Source: an uncultured Rhizobiaceae group bacterium (GTDB lineage Bacteria; Pseudomonadota; Alphaproteobacteria; Rhizobiales; Rhizobiaceae). From it: a DNA stretch of 64,000 bases. The translations under genes were made by a program, and so were the position numbers. The notes below the pieces were generated by a model. It saw only the letters and a list, made by a program, of their open reading frames with translations, did not search any database and was not told the DNA's origin. The first letter of the stretch is position 1, and each line of letters starts with the position of its first letter. Positions 4,093 through 13,639 of the stretch are shown here, in pieces. The DNA lies in the NCBI GenBank assembly GCA_947501445.1, contig CANMVS010000009.1, forward strand, positions 62,001 through 126,000, given 5' to 3'.

Positions 4093-4190
4093 AAACTATC
4101 GACAACCCGTTCAGCACGAGGGTGTCACCCATGTCCTAGGTAAAATCTGTTACCTATCTCTCCGGGTCGAACATTTGGGGAAATGGCGGA
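4093..4190. repeat. Left flanking direct repeat: IS481-type right-end remnant plus tRNA-Ser 3' end core (putative attL)
   Basis: These 98 bases match 13460-13556 with about eight differences. The first ~75 bases are the last part of the IS481-type element (tail of its transposase ORF and the right terminal repeat); the last 14 (4177-4190, ggggaaatggcgga) are identical to the sequence spanning the encoded CCA end of tRNA-Ser at 13543-13556. The rest of the IS is missing here. Together the two copies bound the mobilizable island. The preceding stretch 3694-4092 holds no recognisable gene. Confidence 0.75.
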
Positions 4191-4329: not shown

Positions 4330-4769
4330 ATGGTTCCGGTGTTACAAACGGCTTAAACGCCATTTTCAGCGGAAAGGTCACAGAAAAGAAAAGCAAACCG
4401 AAACGTATATCCCCGGTGTCCATTCGTTTCAGCGATGCTGAACATGCTGAACTGATGCTATGGACAAGAGGCGAATTCCTCGGGCCTTATATCAAGGGCC
4501 ATAACCTGAGCAGTGTCAGAAGTAAGCGCAAGCCGCGCAGCACTCTGCCGCCCAGGCAACAACAGGCCATTGCACAGGCATTACGACGGTTGGGACATTC
4601 CGGCCTGTACGATGTCCTTTCATCGCTTGTGTTGGCCGTTGAGGAAGGCCGTCTGCTGCCTGAACAGCAGATGGAAGACGACCTGCGCCAGGCATTGTCC
4701 AATGTGACGGCACTACGCAGCGATCTGATGACCACTCTTGGAATGCGAGCTGATAAGGCGGGTGTATGA
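4326..4769 (+). CDS. MobC-like mobilization accessory protein
   Basis: A basic 147-residue protein directly upstream of, and overlapping (ATGA), the relaxase gene. The N-terminus is rich in Lys/Arg; residues about 36-60 (ISPVSIRFSDAEHAELMLW) look like a ribbon-helix-helix strand and helix, and the C-terminal half (QAIAQALRRLGHSGLYDVL) resembles the helical MobC region. It would bind oriT DNA and help load the relaxase. The call rests on gene order plus these features and not on a strong signature. The ATG overlaps the stop of the preceding 48-aa ORF. Confidence 0.65.
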   Translation: MNGSGVTNGLNAIFSGKVTEKKSKPKRISPVSIRFSDAEHAELMLWTRGEFLGPYIKGHNLSSVRSKRKPRSTLPPRQQQAIAQALRRLGHSGLYDVLSSLVLAVEEGRLLPEQQMEDDLRQALSNVTALRSDLMTTLGMRADKAGV

Positions 4770-6088
4770 TCCTGCATGGCAATCAACGAGGTGGTGGCAA
4801 GGATTTGGCTATTCATCTTATGAAACCTGAGAATGAACGGGTGCAGGTTCATGAGATACGCGGCTTTGTCTCCAATAATCTGATTGGTGCATTCAAGGAA
4901 TCTTACGCCATCAGCAAGGCCACACGCTGCAAGCAGCATCTTTATTCCCTGTCAATCAATCCGCCGAAGAGTGCAGATATAAACGATGCGGATTTTATCG
5001 CTGCTATTGATCGAACGGAGGCAAAGCTTGGCCTGGGTGACCAGCCCCGTGCCGTTGTATTTCACGATAAGCGCGGCACTGACGGGCAATTGCGTCGTCA
5101 TGCCCATGCCGTTTGGTGCAGAATCGATACGGATAGAATGAAAGCTGTGCAGCTATCGCACACAAAGCTCAAACTACGTGATGTATCCCGTGATCTGCAT
5201 ATCGAGCATGATTTGAAAATGCCGCCCGGCTTGATCAATTCAAAAGATCGGGACCCACGTAACTTCTCATTGGAGGAATGGCAGCAATGCAAGCAGGCAA
5301 AGAAAAATGTGCAAGAGATCAAAGACACATTCAAAGACTGTTGGGCTGTCTCGGACTCAGGTGCCTTATTTTCTCATGCACTTGCAGAGCGTGGCTATAT
5401 TCTGACTAAAGGTAACAGGGGCCATGTCGCTGTTGATTACAAGGGCGAGAAGTATGCTGTCTCCCGCTATGTCGGGATCAGAGCAAAGCAGGTTCGGGAA
5501 AAACTCGGTGAAGTGCACGGGTTTCCGGATGTCGAACAGGTAAAACAGGTTGCTGCAAAACAGATCACGGATCGTCTAAAAATCCTGCGCGCCGAACAAG
5601 AAAAACAGGCACAAGGCAAAGCTATGTATGCACAAAAACAGCAACAAAGTCTGATAGAAAGCTATGCAGAAGCGGCCCGACAGCTAAAAAATATGCAGGA
5701 ATCCCGTCGTGTTTCTGAAGAGATGACCAGGGCGAATAGGATCAAAAAAGGTCTGATGGGGTTGTTTGACCACTTGACGGGCAAACGCAAACAGGTCTTG
5801 GCGCAAAACGCGACAGATACAAAGAACGCACTGTATCGTGACGTGCAAGAGGCCGAGAAACTTGAGAAACGACAACAAAAGGTGCGAGACAGTCATCAAA
5901 ATCATGCCCATTCCGCACGAGTACCGCACGTGAACGCAGTCAGGGAACTTAATGCAGACATAAAACAAATTTCCGAACCGCCTGCTCCATCAAAACAAAA
6001 GAAGGCCGAATATATTGCCAGAGAGAAGCAGCGCGCGAAACGACCGCGCCGCCCAAGATACCGCAATGGACCAAATCTTCATCCCTAA
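4766..6088 (+). CDS. Relaxase / mobilization nuclease (MobA/VirD2-like)
   Basis: The DNA-nicking transesterase that would start conjugative mobilization of this island. The N-terminus MILHGNQRGGGKDLAIHLM is the hallmark of this alphaproteobacterial relaxase group. The metal-binding histidine motif is present (H100, then HAH at 112-114 in RRHAHAVW), following AVVFHDKRG. Residues about 270-440 are highly charged and helical (coiled-coil-like) and end in a very basic tail (RAKRPRRPRYR) that may bind DNA or the transfer channel. No type IV secretion genes are present, so the island would need a helper system. The start overlaps the previous gene. Confidence 0.88.
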   Translation: MILHGNQRGGGKDLAIHLMKPENERVQVHEIRGFVSNNLIGAFKESYAISKATRCKQHLYSLSINPPKSADINDADFIAAIDRTEAKLGLGDQPRAVVFHDKRGTDGQLRRHAHAVWCRIDTDRMKAVQLSHTKLKLRDVSRDLHIEHDLKMPPGLINSKDRDPRNFSLEEWQQCKQAKKNVQEIKDTFKDCWAVSDSGALFSHALAERGYILTKGNRGHVAVDYKGEKYAVSRYVGIRAKQVREKLGEVHGFPDVEQVKQVAAKQITDRLKILRAEQEKQAQGKAMYAQKQQQSLIESYAEAARQLKNMQESRRVSEEMTRANRIKKGLMGLFDHLTGKRKQVLAQNATDTKNALYRDVQEAEKLEKRQQKVRDSHQNHAHSARVPHVNAVRELNADIKQISEPPAPSKQKKAEYIAREKQRAKRPRRPRYRNGPNLHP

Positions 6089-6407: not shown

Positions 6408-7154
6408 ATGCAGTACCAAGAAATTGAAGCCCTCAAAGAAAGCCATATCTGCGCTAATTGTATTGGCGAAGAATATTTGAGCAGTCGTGTCAGCAATGAA
6501 GGCAAGAAAGCCAATTGCAATTACTGTGGTGAGAAGGAAAAATCCATCACGTTGGAAGACCTCTCGAGAGAGATTGTAAAAGCGTTTGAAGATCACTACT
6601 CGCGCACACAAAGGGACCCTGACGGTTTGCAATGGGCGATGATGAAAGATCCCGAGAGCAACTATGATTGGGAACGCGAAGGTGAACCCAGTGAATATGC
6701 GATTATGAATGCGGCTGACTTACCGCCTCAAGCCGCAAAGGATATTCAATCTATCCTCTCGTCAGAACATTTCGATTATGATGAGCCTGAAAGTGAGTTT
6801 TCAGACGAAACTCACTACGAAGAAGTTATGCCGGGGGACCATGAATGGGAGCAAGGTTGGCGCGACTTTCAAACTTCCATCAAATCTGAAGCTCGCTTTT
6901 TTAGCAATGTTGCTCTTGGGCAACTTGACCGTTTGTTTGTCAACATAAACACCATCAAAACCTCAATGGGAAAACCGCTAATTGTGGATGCTGGTCCTGA
7001 GACAGGCATGGCATCATTGTTCAGAGCCAGAGTATTTCAATCTGAAGCGTCACTTAAATCTGCGATGATGCGACCCGATCTTGAATTGAGCGCACCACCG
7101 TCACAATTTGCCACCGCAGGTCGCATGAACGCAAAAGGCATCTCCGTCTTTTAG
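6408..7154 (+). pseudogene. HEPN/RES-type RES-domain protein, N-terminal part (gene interrupted by TAG)
   Basis: First 248 codons of a gene whose reading frame continues past a single TAG (7152-7154) to 7853. The N-terminus has two CxxC pairs (CANC near residue 16 and CNYC near residue 37), as in the HEPN/RES N-terminal domain, then an acidic linker and the start of the RES domain with its conserved Arg (SLFRARVF). RES proteins of the ParT/MbcT type are toxins that consume NAD+. The stop falls in GISVF*GAT, where RES domains carry a conserved Tyr (FYGAT). No Xre-type antitoxin gene lies beside it. As it stands the product lacks the catalytic Glu and Ser. Confidence 0.75.
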
Positions 7155-7166
7155 GGGGCGACGGGA

Positions 7167-7853
7167 GTGGATACCGCGTTGGCCGAAGTTAGACCGCCAG
7201 TTGGATCGGATGTTGCTGTGGCAAAGTTCAATATTGTCCGTCCACTGCGATTGTTAGATTTGACCCTGCTAAGCGATGTTCATGTCACCGGGAGTATTTT
7301 TGACACAAGCTATGCAGACCGCCTTGGTCACAAAACATTCCTGCGTAAGCTGGTAGACCGCATGACCCGGGCCGTTATGCCAGACGATCAGGACAGTGAA
7401 TATCTTCCAACACAAGCGATTGCTGACTATTTGGCAACCAGCGAGACCTTAAATATCGATGGCATTGTTTTTCCGTCGGTTCAAACAAGTACCAAAGGGC
7501 TGAATGTCGTTTTATTTCACAAGGCCTCAAGATGCAAAACACTGTCATTTCCAGTTGGTACCGAGCTTTCTGCTGATACGTATCAGATGTATGCAGAAGG
7601 ACCGGAGCCCGAATATCAGGTGATCGAAGAAGTCCCACCTGAGAAAAAAAAGGATGAAGAGCCGAAACAAAAGTTTCCGTTTCCGCCTTCTCTTCCGTAT
7701 TTGGACGACGCGTTTGATACCGATGGCAGGGACAAGACTTTGGAGATCGATTTATGTTCGGTTCGCGTTCATGTTGTTCACGCAGTAACGATCAAGGCCG
7801 ATGATTTCGAAGTTGAGCGTGTCCGTTGGACCAAGAACGGTGATGTTTTTTGA
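7167..7853 (+). pseudogene. RES-domain protein, C-terminal part (same frame as the upstream fragment)
   Basis: This is the second part of the broken RES gene. The frame is open from the codon after the TAG at 7152-7154; a GTG at 7167 is only a possible internal start. It contains the remaining RES signatures: TALAEVRPPVGS with the conserved Glu, and the IDGIVFPSVQ region with the conserved Ser followed by NVVLFH. A C-terminal tail with a charged, proline-rich stretch (PPEKKKDEEPKQKFPFPP) ends in a beta-rich segment. Without readthrough no complete active site can form. It converges with the TcmP gene, with 27 bases between. Confidence 0.72.
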
Positions 7854-7880: not shown

Positions 7881-9122
7881 TTACTTTTTCATGGCCGGCA
7901 TGAGAAAGAAGCTTCTTTGCGGATTAAGAATGAGAGTATCAGTTGAGCGAATGCCGTTAGGACTTCGACGTTCACCACCATTTTCAGTGCGAACCGTGAG
8001 GTCGGTATTCTCGATCATCATTTGCTTGATATCCATTGAATGAGCTGGCGTTTCATTGCTGACATTGCGAATGAAATCCTCAATCGCGATGGCGTCACCG
8101 AATTCAGAAACAGCCTTTGGAATATCTCCGTAAAGCTCCTCGCGTGCTCGCTGCCTGTCAGAATCAGCGAAAAGGTAATCACTTCCCTCGAACTGCGGAT
8201 CATACGCCAACATACTTAGCCCTGACCTTCCAAAATGACCTTGTGCACCGGCATTTTCGTGAAGAAGGTCGTTGTAGACCTGCCTTGCTTTTGGTTCATT
8301 TGCAAAATGCAGAAGCCAATAAAACCAACCATCGGGATTGTTGATGGCAAAGGGGCTGACATAGGGGCTACAGCTCCGATAGGATTCAAACACAAGCCGT
8401 TCTATCGCTGCTCGCCATTCGCGCTTGTTGGCAACTTCTGAAATGTCCTCAATTCGAGTTTGCTCAATGCCATGTTGGGAAAGCGTCTTTGCAAGCGCGT
8501 CGGGATTGTTTCTAGATAGATATGTGAACATGGATTGTGCCGCGAATGTCAGTAGCACTTCTGCCGATTGGTATGTTGTGAGAATATCGACAATCGTATT
8601 GCGCGTGACCCGTGAGCTTCCACACTGATCCAGATTGAAAAAAACATTTCTTGGAATTTTGTTGGATGCAAGGAGTACTTTGACCTTGGGATAGGCGACT
8701 TCAAACTCATCGTTGAGAAACTCGATTTGAACTGTGAGATGGTTCTTCGCGTTGCAAGCCTGGAGCAGAGGCGCAACATTAGATTTAAGGATGTTGATTG
8801 CATCCTTATCGAGGTCGTTGAGAATAAGCAGACACTCAAACTGGATTTGCGCCATCCCATTAGCGGCACGTTCAACATTGATCTCGTTGGTTTGTTCTTC
8901 AAGCAAACTCAAAAATATCAAGGGAGAGCCAGGTTCACCACCTTCATACGCGCCACCACCCGCAAAGCCATCGACAATCGCTAGTCTGAAGCGGGATTGT
9001 TGGGGTGTTCGGCAACGAATGCGTAGATATTCGGAAATGTACTGCCTTAGGACTTGATGTTTCTTTTTTGAGTGCTCTTTGAGAACGGCACCATCAACCC
9101 ATTGATACGGAACTTGAACCAT
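7881..9122 (-). CDS. Three-Cys-motif partner protein TcmP
   Basis: A 413-residue protein of the TcmP family, named for genomic pairing with three-Cys-motif proteins, exactly as here (DUF5131 gene 8 bases upstream). The N-terminus shows a methyltransferase-like first motif, IVDGFAGGGAYEGGEPGSP (about residues 49-67), then CLLILNDLDKDA as a second Rossmann-like strand and VFFNLDQCGSS as a motif-IV-like acidic strand. This suggests an AdoMet-dependent methyltransferase fold, though the activity is not known. The C-terminal 150 residues look helical. With its partner it sits on a mobile island between a RES gene and transfer functions. Confidence 0.85.
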   Translation of the reverse strand: MVQVPYQWVDGAVLKEHSKKKHQVLRQYISEYLRIRCRTPQQSRFRLAIVDGFAGGGAYEGGEPGSPLIFLSLLEEQTNEINVERAANGMAQIQFECLLILNDLDKDAINILKSNVAPLLQACNAKNHLTVQIEFLNDEFEVAYPKVKVLLASNKIPRNVFFNLDQCGSSRVTRNTIVDILTTYQSAEVLLTFAAQSMFTYLSRNNPDALAKTLSQHGIEQTRIEDISEVANKREWRAAIERLVFESYRSCSPYVSPFAINNPDGWFYWLLHFANEPKARQVYNDLLHENAGAQGHFGRSGLSMLAYDPQFEGSDYLFADSDRQRAREELYGDIPKAVSEFGDAIAIEDFIRNVSNETPAHSMDIKQMMIENTDLTVRTENGGERRSPNGIRSTDTLILNPQRSFFLMPAMKK

Positions 9123-9130
9123 TCACCACC

Positions 9131-9904
9131 TCAAGCAGCAACAGCGGGCATTTCATCCCAGGTTTGGCCACGATAGTGTCGACCGTTTGCTTTCTTCGAT
9201 CGCTTTTTGTTATCGGCTCCCCACGTACCCCATTGTTTGAAGAAAAATGCGGTATCGTGATCACGGCAATGGTTGTGGATCTCGTCTATCCACTCTTCAC
9301 GGATCGGTCGTGCGGATGGACCACTTTCGCCACCGACAATTGCCCAGTGAATGTCTTTTAGGCTAATTAAGCCAACCGGACCGATCAGCGGCTCAAATGA
9401 AATGAAGCGTACTTGCGCTGGAACACGCCGAAGTTCATCTATTCGAGGTGCCACCGCTGCATCCTCAACACTTGTTCCAAGCCAGACATTAGGCAGAACG
9501 GCCTTTATTTCTTCTTTGATCAACGTTGCCATTCGGTCAGGTCTTTTTGTGAGTATTTGATAATTATGTTGAGGCGTATCAGCCATGACGTCCCATACTT
9601 TCTGAATAAAGGCATCATCCACCTTCTCGTGAAAAAGGTCTGACATGGAATTGACGAATATGTTGCGCGGTTTTCTCCATTTTTTTGGGATGTTCAACGC
9701 AGCTTCGTCAAGACGCACATTATTGTTCCAGATTGTGCGCTTTCCGCTCTTTCGCGTGAGGCCTGCATATTTTTGAACACCCATGGCCTCCAAACGATGG
9801 GCCATCTGCATTGCATAGCAGTTAGTGCAGCCAGCAGACATGATCGAACACCCCGCTACAGGGTTCCAAGTTGTGTCTGTCCATTCAATGCGCGTTTCAG
9901 CCAT
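9131..9904 (-). CDS. DUF5131 (phage Gp37/Gp68-like) three-Cys-motif protein
   Basis: A 257-residue protein of the Gp37/Gp68 family, related to radical-SAM TIM-barrel proteins. The N-terminus MAETRIEWTDTTWNPVAGC is diagnostic; the three cysteines follow as C19-x6-C26-x2-C29 and probably hold an iron-sulfur cluster. Further conserved blocks are NIFVNSMSDLFH, YQILTKRPDRM, WLGTSVED and IVGGESG. It is the first gene of a two-gene operon with TcmP. The substrate is unknown. Phage copies and its mobile location make a nucleic-acid-modifying or defence role plausible, but that is inference. Confidence 0.88.
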   Translation of the reverse strand: MAETRIEWTDTTWNPVAGCSIMSAGCTNCYAMQMAHRLEAMGVQKYAGLTRKSGKRTIWNNNVRLDEAALNIPKKWRKPRNIFVNSMSDLFHEKVDDAFIQKVWDVMADTPQHNYQILTKRPDRMATLIKEEIKAVLPNVWLGTSVEDAAVAPRIDELRRVPAQVRFISFEPLIGPVGLISLKDIHWAIVGGESGPSARPIREEWIDEIHNHCRDHDTAFFFKQWGTWGADNKKRSKKANGRHYRGQTWDEMPAVAA

Positions 9905-10670: not shown

Positions 10671-12026
10671 GTGCCTGTCGCACCAGCCATCACATTTAAA
10701 ACCTCACGGACCAGGGCGGTGATTTATTGCCGTGTGTCTTCACCCCGACAGGTGGAGGAAGGGCACGGATTGGATTCACAGGAAGCACGATGCCGAGAAT
10801 ATGCAAGCCGTATGAAATATGAGGTGATTGGGGTCTTTCAGGACAAAGGCGTATCCAGCGGCATTTTTGATCGCCCCGGTATGCAGAAAATGCTCAGCTT
10901 TCTGCAATGCTGTGATGATGAAAAAATCATGGTCATTATTGACGATATCAACCGCTTTTCTGGGGATATTCAGGTTCACTGGGATTTAAAGGCGCGCTTG
11001 GCAATGGCGGGCGGCCTGCTTGAAAGCCCTACCATGAAATTTGGTGACAGCCCCGATGATAAGCTCATTAAAAATCTGCTGGCCTCTGTCGCAGAGCACA
11101 GGCGCGAGAAGATTGCTGAAACAACCAAGCACCGCATTCAAGGGCGAGCAATGAATGGCTATTGGGTCTTTCACGCGCCGCAAGGCTACAAGTATGAAAA
11201 GGTCGCCGGGCATGGCAAATTGCTTGTTCGTGATGAACCTGTTGCTTCTATCATACAGGAAGCTTTACAGGGCTTTGCCTCGGGTCGCTTTGAAACTCAG
11301 GCAGAAATCAAACGCTTCCTAGAAAGTAAACCGGAGTTTCCGAAGGACCGCCGCAGCGGTGAAGTTCGATACGAAGAAATCATTCGTCTTTTAACTCGTC
11401 CACATTACGCCGGGCACATTGAAATTCCAAACTGGAATATCTCACTGCGCAAAGGGCAGCATGATGGATTAATCACTCTTGAGGAGTGTCAGCGCATTCA
11501 GGAGCGTATCAAGGAAGGTGCACGGGTTCCTGCGAGAAAGGATATCAATGCTGAATTTCCGCTGCGGGGCTTTGTAACCTGCGGGACTTGTGAAAACCCG
11601 CTGACAGCCAACTTTTCAAAATCAAAAACCGGAAAGCGGCATCCCTACTATATGTGCTTTACCAAAGGGTGTGAGAGTTACCGCAAATCCATTCGCCGTG
11701 CTGATATTGAAGGGGAGTTTGAAACTCTACTGAAACAAATGCGCCCCTCTGCCAAGCTGCTCCATTGCCTGAAAGTGATCTTCAAGCGTGAATGGGAACT
11801 TAGACTTGATCAAATGCGGGAAATCAAGAAGTCTCTCAGGCGCGATATTGCGGGGCTGGACAAGCAAATTGAAACGCTGATGGACCGCATTGTTGATGCC
11901 GAATCCACAACCGCAATCACGGCCTATGAACGCCGCATTGTGAGACTGGCAAAGGAAAAGCTCTTAAAGGGGGAACAACTGGAAAATGGTACTGCTCCCC
12001 AACGCCCCTTTGAGGAAATGTTCTAA
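10671..12026 (+). CDS. Serine recombinase (large, resolvase-type N-terminus), damaged at both ends
   Basis: A site-specific recombinase: resolvase catalytic domain (AVIYCRVSSPRQ with the nucleophilic Ser, EARCREYA, GVSSGIFDRPGM, IIDDINRFSGD), recombinase domain, zinc-ribbon-like segment (CGTCENPL...CFTKGC) and C-terminal coiled coil. It is the only candidate integrase on the island. The frame is open but for stops well beyond both ends. Upstream an ATG at 10638 with an AAGGAG site reads MKHT, then TAA (10650-10652), then runs into this ORF. Downstream, after TAA at 12024-12026, 60 more codons (LALEFLSNSWKIW... to ILGDINMGK) run to 12209, at the edge of an IS481-type element. The GTG at 10671 is the first usable start after the TAA and has no clear ribosome site. 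Probably inactive or weak. Confidence 0.85.
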   Translation: MPVAPAITFKTSRTRAVIYCRVSSPRQVEEGHGLDSQEARCREYASRMKYEVIGVFQDKGVSSGIFDRPGMQKMLSFLQCCDDEKIMVIIDDINRFSGDIQVHWDLKARLAMAGGLLESPTMKFGDSPDDKLIKNLLASVAEHRREKIAETTKHRIQGRAMNGYWVFHAPQGYKYEKVAGHGKLLVRDEPVASIIQEALQGFASGRFETQAEIKRFLESKPEFPKDRRSGEVRYEEIIRLLTRPHYAGHIEIPNWNISLRKGQHDGLITLEECQRIQERIKEGARVPARKDINAEFPLRGFVTCGTCENPLTANFSKSKTGKRHPYYMCFTKGCESYRKSIRRADIEGEFETLLKQMRPSAKLLHCLKVIFKREWELRLDQMREIKKSLRRDIAGLDKQIETLMDRIVDAESTTAITAYERRIVRLAKEKLLKGEQLENGTAPQRPFEEMF

Positions 12027-12343: not shown

Positions 12344-12940
12344 ATGGAGGAACGTTTGAGATTTGTGGCTCGCCGTCTTGAGGGAGAAGGCATGAGCGAG
12401 CTATGTCGAGAGTTCGGGATTTCCCGCAAGACGGGCTACAAGATCTTCAATGGTTACAGGGATCGTGGGCTTGAGGCCCTTTGCGATCGATCGCGTCGAC
12501 CGGTGCGTTATGCCAATCAATTGCCTGAAGCGATTGAGCGGATGATTGTTGAATGCAGACGCGACAAACCCCATTGGGGAGCCCGCAAGATCCGCGAGTT
12601 GCTTGTGCGGCGTCTGGCCGGTGATGTGCGTATCCCAGCCAAGAGTACCGTACATGCGGTTCTGGATCGCCACGGCCTGGTCAAGCGCGGCAGGCAGCGC
12701 AGGCGGAATAAGGCACAAGGTACGCCACTATCGTCGGGATCGACTGCCAATGCCCTGTGGTGTGCTGACTACAAGGGCGAATTCAAACTTGGCAATGACC
12801 AATATTGTTACCCCTTGACGGTGACAGATCACGCCTCACGCATGGTGTTGATGTGTGAAGCCCATGATTCGACCAAGGAGATCAATGCCTTGTCGGCCTT
12901 CCAACAGCTGTTCACCGAACGGGTTTGCCTGAGGCAATGA
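12344..12940 (+). pseudogene. IS481-type transposase, N-terminal part (frameshifted)
   Basis: Contains the helix-turn-helix (MSELCREFGISRKTGYKIF), the HTH/IS481 linker (KPHWGARKIRELLVRR) and the first half of the DDE integrase core including the first Asp (LWCADYKGEF). The frame breaks at FTERVCLRQ near 12923. Adding one G to the GGG run there restores FTERGLPEAMRTDNG, continuing into the overlapping downstream ORF. Family transposases are normally one ORF of roughly 380-390 aa, so a one-base deletion is the simplest explanation. Confidence 0.75.
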
Positions 12941-13506
12941 GGACAGATAACGGTCTGCCGTTTGCCAGTCCCAACGGGCTTTACAACTTGTCCAGGCTCT
13001 CTGTGTGGTGGCTGCGACTGGGCATCAGGATCGAGCGAATTCAACCAGGATGTCCCCAACAAAACGGCAGACATGAACGCATGCATTTGACATTGAAGAA
13101 GGAAACAACCAGACCAACGGGCAAAAACAGCCTGCAACAACAGGTCCGTTTCGATGCATTCGTTAATGAATTCAATGACGAACGACCGCACGAGGCGCTG
13201 GACATGCGATGTCCAGGTGAGGTCTATTGTGCATCCCGGCAAACCTACAAAGGTCTGCCGGAAGTCACGTATCCAGTCCACGACAAGGACATTCTGGTCA
13301 CCGCATGCGGACGTATCTGCATGCATAGAAAGAAGATCAACATATCAACCGTATTGGCTGGGCAAAAACTGGGAATGAAGGAGGTGGACGACGGAATATG
13401 GCTTTTAAGCTTCATGCAATATGATCTGGGATACATCGACCTGGAGCAAAAAACACTGCAAACTATCGACAACCCGCTCAGCACGAGGGTGTCACCCATG
13501 TCCTAG
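12925..13506 (+). pseudogene. IS481-type transposase, C-terminal part (frameshifted)
   Basis: Continues the transposase in the -1 phase. It carries the second catalytic Asp (AMRTDNGLPF) and the Glu (QQNGRHERMHLTLKKE), then the C-terminal region to VSPMS at the right end of the element. The overlap with the N-terminal fragment (12925-12940) contains the lesion. GGGTTTG is present there, but it is not in the X-XXY-YYZ phase needed for ordinary -1 frameshifting, so programmed frameshifting is unlikely. Confidence 0.72.
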
Positions 13507-13556
13507 GTACAATCTGTTACCTATCTTTCCGGGTCAGACATCGGGGAAATGGCGGA
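13460..13556. repeat. Right flanking direct repeat (putative attR) running into tRNA-Ser
   Basis: Partner of 4093-4190. It comprises the IS481-type right end, a 7-base spacer and the core ggggaaatggcgga (13543-13556), whose last seven bases are the discriminator, CCA end and acceptor bases of tRNA-Ser on the minus strand. The intact tRNA lies on the chromosomal side, as expected when an island integrates at a tRNA 3' end and recreates the gene. Confidence 0.7.
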
Positions 13557-13639
13557 GGAGGTGGGATTCGAACCCACGGTACGCTCTCACGCACGCCGGT
13601 TTTCAAGACCGGTGCCTTCAACCGCTCGGCCACTCCTCC
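13550..13639 (-). tRNA. tRNA-Ser(TGA)
   Basis: The minus strand folds as a class II tRNA of 90 nt with encoded CCA: acceptor GGAGGAG/CTCCTCC, anticodon stem CCGGT/ACCGG around the loop CTTGAAA (anticodon TGA), a long variable arm and the T loop GGGTTCGAATCCC. It decodes UCA (and other UCN) serine codons. Its 3' end is the right boundary of the island, a common integration site. From here to the next gene (13640-13969) I see no other feature. Confidence 0.95.

Follow-up and report, generated by a model that had tools for sequence, protein, structure and literature searches.

A DUF5131-TcmP gene pair on a rhizobial mobile island: a candidate defence module that may modify nucleic acid

Introduction

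What is the function of two adjacent genes on a mobile island, one encoding a DUF5131 protein and the other its three-Cys-motif partner, TcmP? The question is raised by a stretch of 64,000 nucleotides from an uncultured bacterium of the Rhizobiaceae group (contig CANMVS010000009.1, positions 62,001 to 126,000; hereafter, the window), in which the gene for a radical S-adenosylmethionine (radical-SAM)-like protein of the DUF5131 (Gp37/Gp68) family (257 amino acids; positions 9131-9904, reverse strand) is followed by the gene for TcmP, a protein that resembles Rossmann-fold methyltransferases (413 amino acids; 7881-9122, reverse strand). An earlier note on this DNA, made from the letters alone, had described the two genes as tightly coupled, and the open reading frame (ORF) coordinates bear this out, with 8 bp separating the DUF5131 stop codon from the TcmP start codon.

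The pair is already catalogued as an unvalidated defence candidate. The PADLOC-DB v2.0.0 candidates PDC-M30 and PDC-M41 (subunit A, TcmP; subunit B, DUF5131) match both window proteins, which are encoded by neighbouring genes: TcmP matches best to PDC-M30A (E = 2.4e-30) and DUF5131 matches PDC-M41B (6e-104) and PDC-M30B (9.1e-99), all of these being profile matches taken without the PADLOC system rules. Nothing essential separates the window pair from these candidates; its TcmP is of the long form, with the DQ variant of the motif described below. In the cases scanned, long TcmP proteins correspond to PDC-M30A, short ones to PDC-M41A and DUF5131 to PDC-M30B or PDC-M41B.

With slightly less than even confidence, we propose that the pair is a defence module that would modify nucleic acid by combining radical-SAM and methyltransferase chemistry, its chemistry, substrate and outcome being those that we infer below. 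The components of this proposal differ in strength: it is quite probable that the proteins are two cooperating S-adenosylmethionine (AdoMet) enzymes and likely that they take part in the conflict between hosts and mobile elements, be it in defence or in counter-defence, and nucleic-acid modification as the mechanism is slightly favoured.

Results

A TcmP-like ORF lies within 300 bp of DUF5131 in 74 of 80 genome loci that were ranked on resemblance to the window DUF5131; as paired sequences went into the query, this set describes the paired clade. The paired loci belong to proteobacteria, Streptomyces, Mycobacterium, Rhodococcus, Bacteroidota, a Ruminiclostridium and a Phycisphaerae genome, and show three arrangements, with both genes on one strand and DUF5131 first (27 loci), convergent genes (24) or both genes on one strand and TcmP first (23). 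The distance matrices of the two proteins are correlated across 118 pairs (r = 0.41), far above permuted pairs (maximum 0.066 in 500 permutations). Both traits were mapped onto a FastTree tree with 185 labelled DUF5131 proteins. The arrangement (129 rows) changes 16 times, whereas 300 shuffles gave 61 changes on average and never fewer than 53; the paired or lone state changes 20 times, whereas 300 shuffles gave 48 on average and never fewer than 42. Mostly paired DUF5131 clades are separate from mostly lone ones. One locus in these sets (L015) is the window itself, and two others appear identical to members of the genome set (L049 to G054, L077 to G095), which makes for slight redundancy in the alignments, the tree and the distance rows. 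The genomic association that the earlier note had pointed out is thus a real unit, with three clade-specific arrangements and co-varying proteins, and because the linkage persists although the gene order takes three forms, with the two genes convergent in one, it is indicative of joint function and not only of co-transcription. In a promoter and terminator scan, no signal stood clearly above shuffled sequences (1 vs 3.4; 4 vs 2.6).

Of 80 viral contigs, 36 also carry the pair, and all 14 annotated plasmid records, which were retrieved with TcmP, have DUF5131 ahead of TcmP. Across a set of 101 genomes (that of the window and 100 relatives), TcmP scores above the cut-off in 11, at 13 places, of which 12 are clustered with DUF5131 (in one genome, G054, two TcmP genes belong to a single cluster); the exception is a lone TcmP in genome G007. 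Conversely, 15 of the 26 DUF5131 places above the cut-off in these genomes have no adjacent match to TIGR04474, the TcmP profile. The existence of lone places for both genes fits with neither being lethal alone and speaks against a toxin-antitoxin-like or abortive module, in which an RNA or DNA that the cell needs would be damaged by one enzyme, with the damage masked or reversed by its partner until infection. Such a module would accord with two tightly linked genes in variable order, with the probable winged helix of TcmP relatives, which could sense or repress, and with the second, short TcmP that accompanies the pair in several loci, one of them listed in a putative unit with hna (see below); all considered, we find it improbable.

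The short TcmP gene recurs with the pair without being constant. When 760 neighbours were clustered in search of a conserved third gene, no family occurred in more than 4 of 86 loci, a result that is indicative only, given that the gene caller missed known genes at GC-rich loci, and a constant third component was rejected. Separately, a neighbour of about 334 amino acids recurs beside the pair in four loci (L042:8037-9041, L049:8849-9853, L057 and L096), and its L049 copy has no Pfam match.

The window DUF5131 protein matches PF07505 almost end to end (346.4 bits; cut-off 28.9) and contains the three conserved cysteines of the family. The C-x6-C-x2-C motif that had been read at residues 19-29 (codons at 9818-9850, reverse strand) is indeed present, and Cys19, Cys26 and Cys29 are invariant in alignments of 17/17, 58/58 and 129/129 paired rows. 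Together with Gly18, Tyr30, Ala31, Lys120, Glu171 and the GGESG segment (191-195), they are kept in 129/129 paired rows and in 54-56 of 56 lone rows. In the AlphaFold model (mean predicted local distance difference test, pLDDT, 92.8; predicted template-modelling score 0.89), strands and helices alternate, and helix 30-40 starts immediately after the last motif cysteine, in front of which the motif would form a putative iron-sulphur loop; a last cluster cysteine just before a helix is, we assume, a feature of radical-SAM enzymes. When the model was compared with the PDB using Foldseek, the top six matches were all spore photoproduct lyase (SPL), a radical-SAM DNA repair enzyme (E = 2e-3 to 1e-2, probability 0.97-0.99), followed at lower ranks by DesII, lipoyl synthase, MiaB, NifB and viperin, mixed with unrelated barrels. 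By sequence, no PDB relative was detected at E ≤ 1.

A bridge between the two families is provided by the L038 protein, which matches Radical_SAM above the cut-off (2.9e-10), SPL just below the SPL cut-off and the DUF5131 profile weakly (22.9 bits; cut-off 28.9). Its CX3CX2C motif aligns to the DUF5131 motif with a 3-residue insertion (probability 34, E = 4.4e-4, against a single-sequence template). A further relative is rSAM_mob_pairA (TIGR04471 in NCBIfam, radical SAM mobile pair protein A), which matches DUF5131 residues 15-224 at 6.9e-20, but with a score of 71.5 bits, far below the curated cut-off of 355.

The partial TIM barrel of radical-SAM enzymes is apparent in the predicted fold, but several observations weigh against the radical-SAM part of our proposal. 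The SPL matches have template-modelling (TM) scores of 0.43-0.52, and none of the PDB matches of the model falls under E = 1e-3; identity to SPL is about 10%; the window protein has no match to the Pfam Radical_SAM family; and, in place of the canonical CX3CX2C, it has C-x6-C-x2-C. The consistency with an iron-sulphur cluster that the earlier note had claimed is thus supported by the predicted fold, with a cysteine spacing that departs from the canonical one, and we describe DUF5131 as radical-SAM-like, without filing it as a canonical member of the superfamily.

Given that the nearest fold is that of an enzyme that repairs DNA lesions, the pair could be a DNA-repair passenger that reverses lesions and rides on mobile DNA without any role in conflict, and in Burkholderia glumae, the pair indeed lies near error-prone polymerase genes. 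Against this interpretation stand the patchy distribution of TcmP, for which 29 of the 385 genomes surveyed in the class have a match above the cut-off, and the enrichment of defence families around the pair (see below), and we consider it quite improbable.

TcmP matches the TIGR04474 profile almost end to end (199.2 bits; curated cut-off 53) and is a three-Cys-motif partner in the literal sense, with Cys19, Cys26 and Cys29 of DUF5131 encoded by the gene 8 bp away. The DGFAGGG motif, for which a methyltransferase-like character had been suggested, was located at residues 51-57 (motif I; codons at 8952-8972, reverse strand). Across 119 rows, Asp51 is kept in 117 (the other 2 have Glu), Gly55 in 117 and Gly57 in 111. 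A motif IV-like NLDQCG follows at residues 163-168 (8619-8636, reverse strand); its Asp165 is kept in 119/119 rows, of which 74 have Pro as the next residue, 44 have Gln and one has Ser. Structural comparison of the TcmP model (pLDDT 89.3) retrieved Rossmann-fold AdoMet-dependent enzymes, namely, SpeE, TYW4, Trm5a, an rRNA methylase and METTL16. The predicted Rossmann fold, the glycine-rich motif I and the acidic residue in motif IV are those of class I AdoMet methyltransferases, but the TM-scores are low. The AdoMet-type assignment of TcmP anticipated in the earlier note is therefore retained as far as the predicted fold goes, with structural similarity that stays low: for the nine matches under E = 1e-3, query-normalised TM-scores are 0.17-0.30, and two of the nine are NAD synthetase, which counts against the assignment. 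Sequence searches of the PDB returned only five chance-level matches, the best at 0.092.

The residue that follows Asp165 divides TcmP into two subtypes that follow gene order. Gln is found in 34 of the 41 pairs with DUF5131 first on the same strand, the window TcmP included, whereas Pro is found in 37/41 and 30/37 of the pairs in the other two arrangements (67/78 combined). If residue 166 corresponds in position to its counterpart in methyltransferase motif IV, the LDP and LDQ subtypes may differ in chemistry.

Sequence comparison also suggests a distant relationship between TcmP and RlmJ (PF04378), a 23S rRNA adenine methyltransferase. An RlmJ gene, which scores 228 bits against PF04378, is weakly matched by the TIGR04474 profile (5e-4, below the cut-off). 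With a 13-row TcmP profile, RlmJ aligns at E = 5e-6 (probability 86), and the aligned parts include motif I (D-x-x-AG-x-G-x-Y), the GSP segment and the aspartate of motif IV. On the opposite side, a longer TcmP profile aligns weakly to RlmJ (probability 12), and the window TcmP has no match to PF04378 at E ≤ 0.1, so that it is no member of that family. In motif IV, TcmP has LDPYG or LDQxG, in contrast to DPPY, which we take to be the motif of amino-methyltransferases. At the C-terminus, the window TcmP may end in a GMT-like winged helix (GMT-wHTH), which it matches at 0.011, below the cut-off; two relatives match it above the cut-off, at 3.6e-6 and 1e-14.

The presence of viperin among the radical-SAM folds matched by DUF5131, at rank 42 (E = 0.31), brings up a viperin-like route, whereby DUF5131 would make a modified nucleotide that stops phage polymerases and TcmP would finish it. 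SPL is clearly the better match, and TcmP matches several RNA methyltransferases and has relatives with a winged helix; with these points on the opposite side, this is, in our view, the least probable of the explanations considered.

When neighbouring genes were compared with PADLOC at E ≤ 1e-10, 89 families were matched by 135 neighbours from 18 TcmP loci, compared to 4 (mad2, with 4 proteins, mad3, BrxHI and AriA) by an equal number of control proteins, drawn from 17 stretches in these genomes; these tallies count families, not proteins. The 20 TcmP regions were chosen by hand, and the sets rest on in-house gene calls, with proteins longer than 900 amino acids left out: 135 of 156 neighbour proteins were used, from 18 of the 20 regions (the last in part), 135 of 136 control proteins and 148 of 154 nearest neighbours. 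Among the matches listed for the TcmP loci are type I restriction-modification, Mza, DRT UG29, PD-Lambda-2 and SoFic. Under the stricter threshold of E ≤ 1e-70, matches among the genes closest to the pair in the 80 genome loci include two AbiEii proteins, type I and type II methyltransferases, DarG, HamA and PRTase_III-A. Compared to controls, the surroundings of the pair are enriched in defence families, which are not universal there.

Examination of plasmids delimits this conclusion. Within 10 kb of the pair, a clear defence gene was annotated in 6 of 14 plasmid records (hand-picked among 40 of 62 PLSDB matches, with defence names judged by the author): CBASS and RloB in L043; AbiE in L045; a reverse transcriptase and a type ISP enzyme in L047; a DUF1837 protein with a helicase in L276, DUF1837 being the HamA domain of PADLOC; and a DNA methyltransferase, a helicase and a GIY-YIG nuclease in L277 and L283. 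Two records are ambiguous, L046 (caspase, dGTPase) and L280 (DUF262). The survey for defence islands envisaged in the earlier note therefore came out in favour of the association with regard to PADLOC families (89 vs 4), but only in part with regard to plasmids, and the notion that the pair always resides in defence islands is rejected.

A number of findings argue against a defence role. Few of the 148 nearest neighbours match PADLOC at E ≤ 1e-70, and six plasmid records (L044, L278, L279, L281, L282 and L284) have no clear defence gene within 10 kb; three of the six (L278, L279 and L284) have the gene for a site-specific integrase immediately ahead of the pair and genes for metal or drug resistance in the vicinity. 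In the window itself, the four other ORFs scanned, those of the RES gene included, have no PADLOC match. Published data speak in part for defence: of the 100 P. aeruginosa strains in one panel, 32 have a predicted PDC-M30, and 68.8% of these 32 are phage-resistant, but resistant strains in this panel carry more systems overall (PMC10855318). The same survey describes candidates such as PDC-M30 as putative, without experimental validation, and derives the PDC models from embedding logic (PMC10855318); because the models themselves come from such logic, our argument rests on named systems. According to another source, most PDCs lack validation (PMC12988326), and in the open-licence PMC literature, partly among the matches listed, no functional test or mechanism of the pair was found.

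The integrase and the pair occupy L278:7004-11293, L279:7004-11260 and L284:8094-11251 on Pseudomonas-type plasmids, and in two of the three, a gene for a DNA-binding protein lies ahead of the integrase. In these plasmids, the pair is possibly a part or the cargo of a small mobile unit, perhaps built around it.

The same plasmids bear on the main competing explanation, namely, that the pair protects the mobile element itself, by modifying its own or the host's DNA against restriction or other defences, or serves its movement. The integrase immediately ahead of the pair in three plasmids, the pair-carrying viral contigs and the plasmid relatives of the window TcmP (62 PLSDB records, of which 29 are typed as conjugative and 30 as non-mobilizable) are compatible with such self-protection, and so is the occurrence of DUF5131 in 159 phage records, with three lone cases near DNA-metabolism genes. 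The enrichment of defence families compared to control stretches and the clear defence genes close by in 6 of 14 plasmid records are less readily accommodated by it, and we rate self-protection as rather unlikely, if better placed than the other alternatives.

A probable named system adjoins the pair in Sinorhizobium meliloti 1021 (L042, a fifteenth plasmid record, which carries no annotation), where the pair converges on a short TcmP gene that is followed, on the same strand, by a gene for an 845-amino-acid helicase. We take this helicase to be Hna: its R. rhizogenes homologue matches PADLOC PDC-S28, and a published table lists SMa2245 as Hna and SMa2243 as TcmP, with the short TcmP placed in a putative unit with hna (PMC12445080). 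The short TcmP adjoins the helicase at L042:11266-14808, and the same layout, with an inserted insertion sequence (IS), is seen in R. rhizogenes L047. As a constant partner, Hna was dismissed, an Hna-like helicase being present at only 2 of 186 loci (L042 and L047).

In phages, DUF5131 was detected in 159 of 50,697 records. Five of these, hand-picked among 40 of the 159, include two with a convergent pair, Synechococcus phage Ssp-JY39 (L166) and Gordonia phage Jablanski (L167), the Jablanski pair being flanked by integrase genes on one side and the immunity repressor on the other. In the remaining three, DUF5131 is alone and located in DNA-metabolism regions, next to a DNA polymerase subunit and a DNA adenine methylase, a single-stranded DNA-binding protein, or a sliding clamp, a point against our proposal inasmuch as it makes the DUF5131 enzyme itself not defence-specific. 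In a Mycobacterium abscessus prophage (L168:3992-6105), a lone DUF5131 gene overlaps one that resembles PAPS reductase genes, within a DNA-metabolism cluster where a DNA adenine methylase is also encoded. The window TcmP as a single query finds 1 phage record and misses both Ssp-JY39 and Jablanski, which shows the limits of single-sequence search.

The island on which the window pair resides carries, on the forward strand, a MobA/VirD2-like relaxase gene (4766-6088; PF03432, 45 bits), a large serine recombinase gene (10671-12026; PF00239 and PF13408) and an IS481-like transposase in two ORFs (12344-12940 and 12925-13506, together 12344-13506; LZ_Tnp_IS481, rve and rve_3). The transfer genes and the RES gene that the earlier note had placed on the island are all present, but the RES gene is interrupted. 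An ORF with a HEPN/RES N-terminal domain (6408-7154, forward; PF18870, 28.4 bits, cut-off 27.4) ends at an in-frame stop codon and is followed in the same frame by an ORF with an N-terminally incomplete RES domain (7167-7853, forward; PF08808, 46.3 bits, profile positions 42-140 of 157). This split gene looks like a broken gene of the toxin-antitoxin type; without a PADLOC match, interrupted and located on the strand opposite to the pair, it was excluded as a component of the system.

A 9.4-kb block that includes the pair is bracketed by a 90-nucleotide direct repeat (4093-4182 and 13460-13549, forward), the right copy of which is 91% identical and abuts a tRNA-Ser(UGA) gene (13550-13639, reverse strand). 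Because homology to five relatives from the genus resumes at 13543-13550, we place the right border of the island at the 3' end of this tRNA gene. The repeat resembles the end of an IS481-type element, and similar copies occur elsewhere in the genome, one of them beside a tRNA-Leu gene (L270); for these two reasons, we do not claim it as the attachment site of the recombinase. This pattern suggests that the IS481-type element favours tRNA 3' ends.

Discussion

We favour the possibility that these two genes form a small anti-phage module, mobile and of the type that PADLOC lists as candidate PDC-M30. Under this scenario, DUF5131 would carry an iron-sulphur cluster on its variant C-x6-C-x2-C loop, in a predicted fold nearest to that of SPL, and TcmP would bind AdoMet as an enzyme of the Rossmann methyltransferase fold, with a possible C-terminal winged helix that might help to hold nucleic acid. 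Together, the two proteins would make or complete a modification on phage DNA, or on a tRNA or rRNA needed during infection, and this modification would block the infection. A more specific version, which we regard as tentative and somewhat unlikely, is that an SPL-like CX6CX2C enzyme and an RlmJ-like partner of the LDP or LDQ subtype jointly make a new base modification during infection, with phages using lone DUF5131 on their own DNA or for counter-defence.

To the existing description of PDC-M30 and PDC-M41, the present analysis adds the closest fold, the alignment of the cysteine loop, the link to RlmJ and the Hna neighbourhood. It also connects the DP/DQ split with gene order and distinguishes clades in which DUF5131 is mostly paired from those in which it is mostly lone. 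The LDP and LDQ subtypes and the invariant cysteine loop lend themselves to direct mutational tests. If our proposal is correct, radical-SAM chemistry on nucleic acid would be added to bacterial immunity, and DUF5131, a family represented also in phages, would acquire a function.

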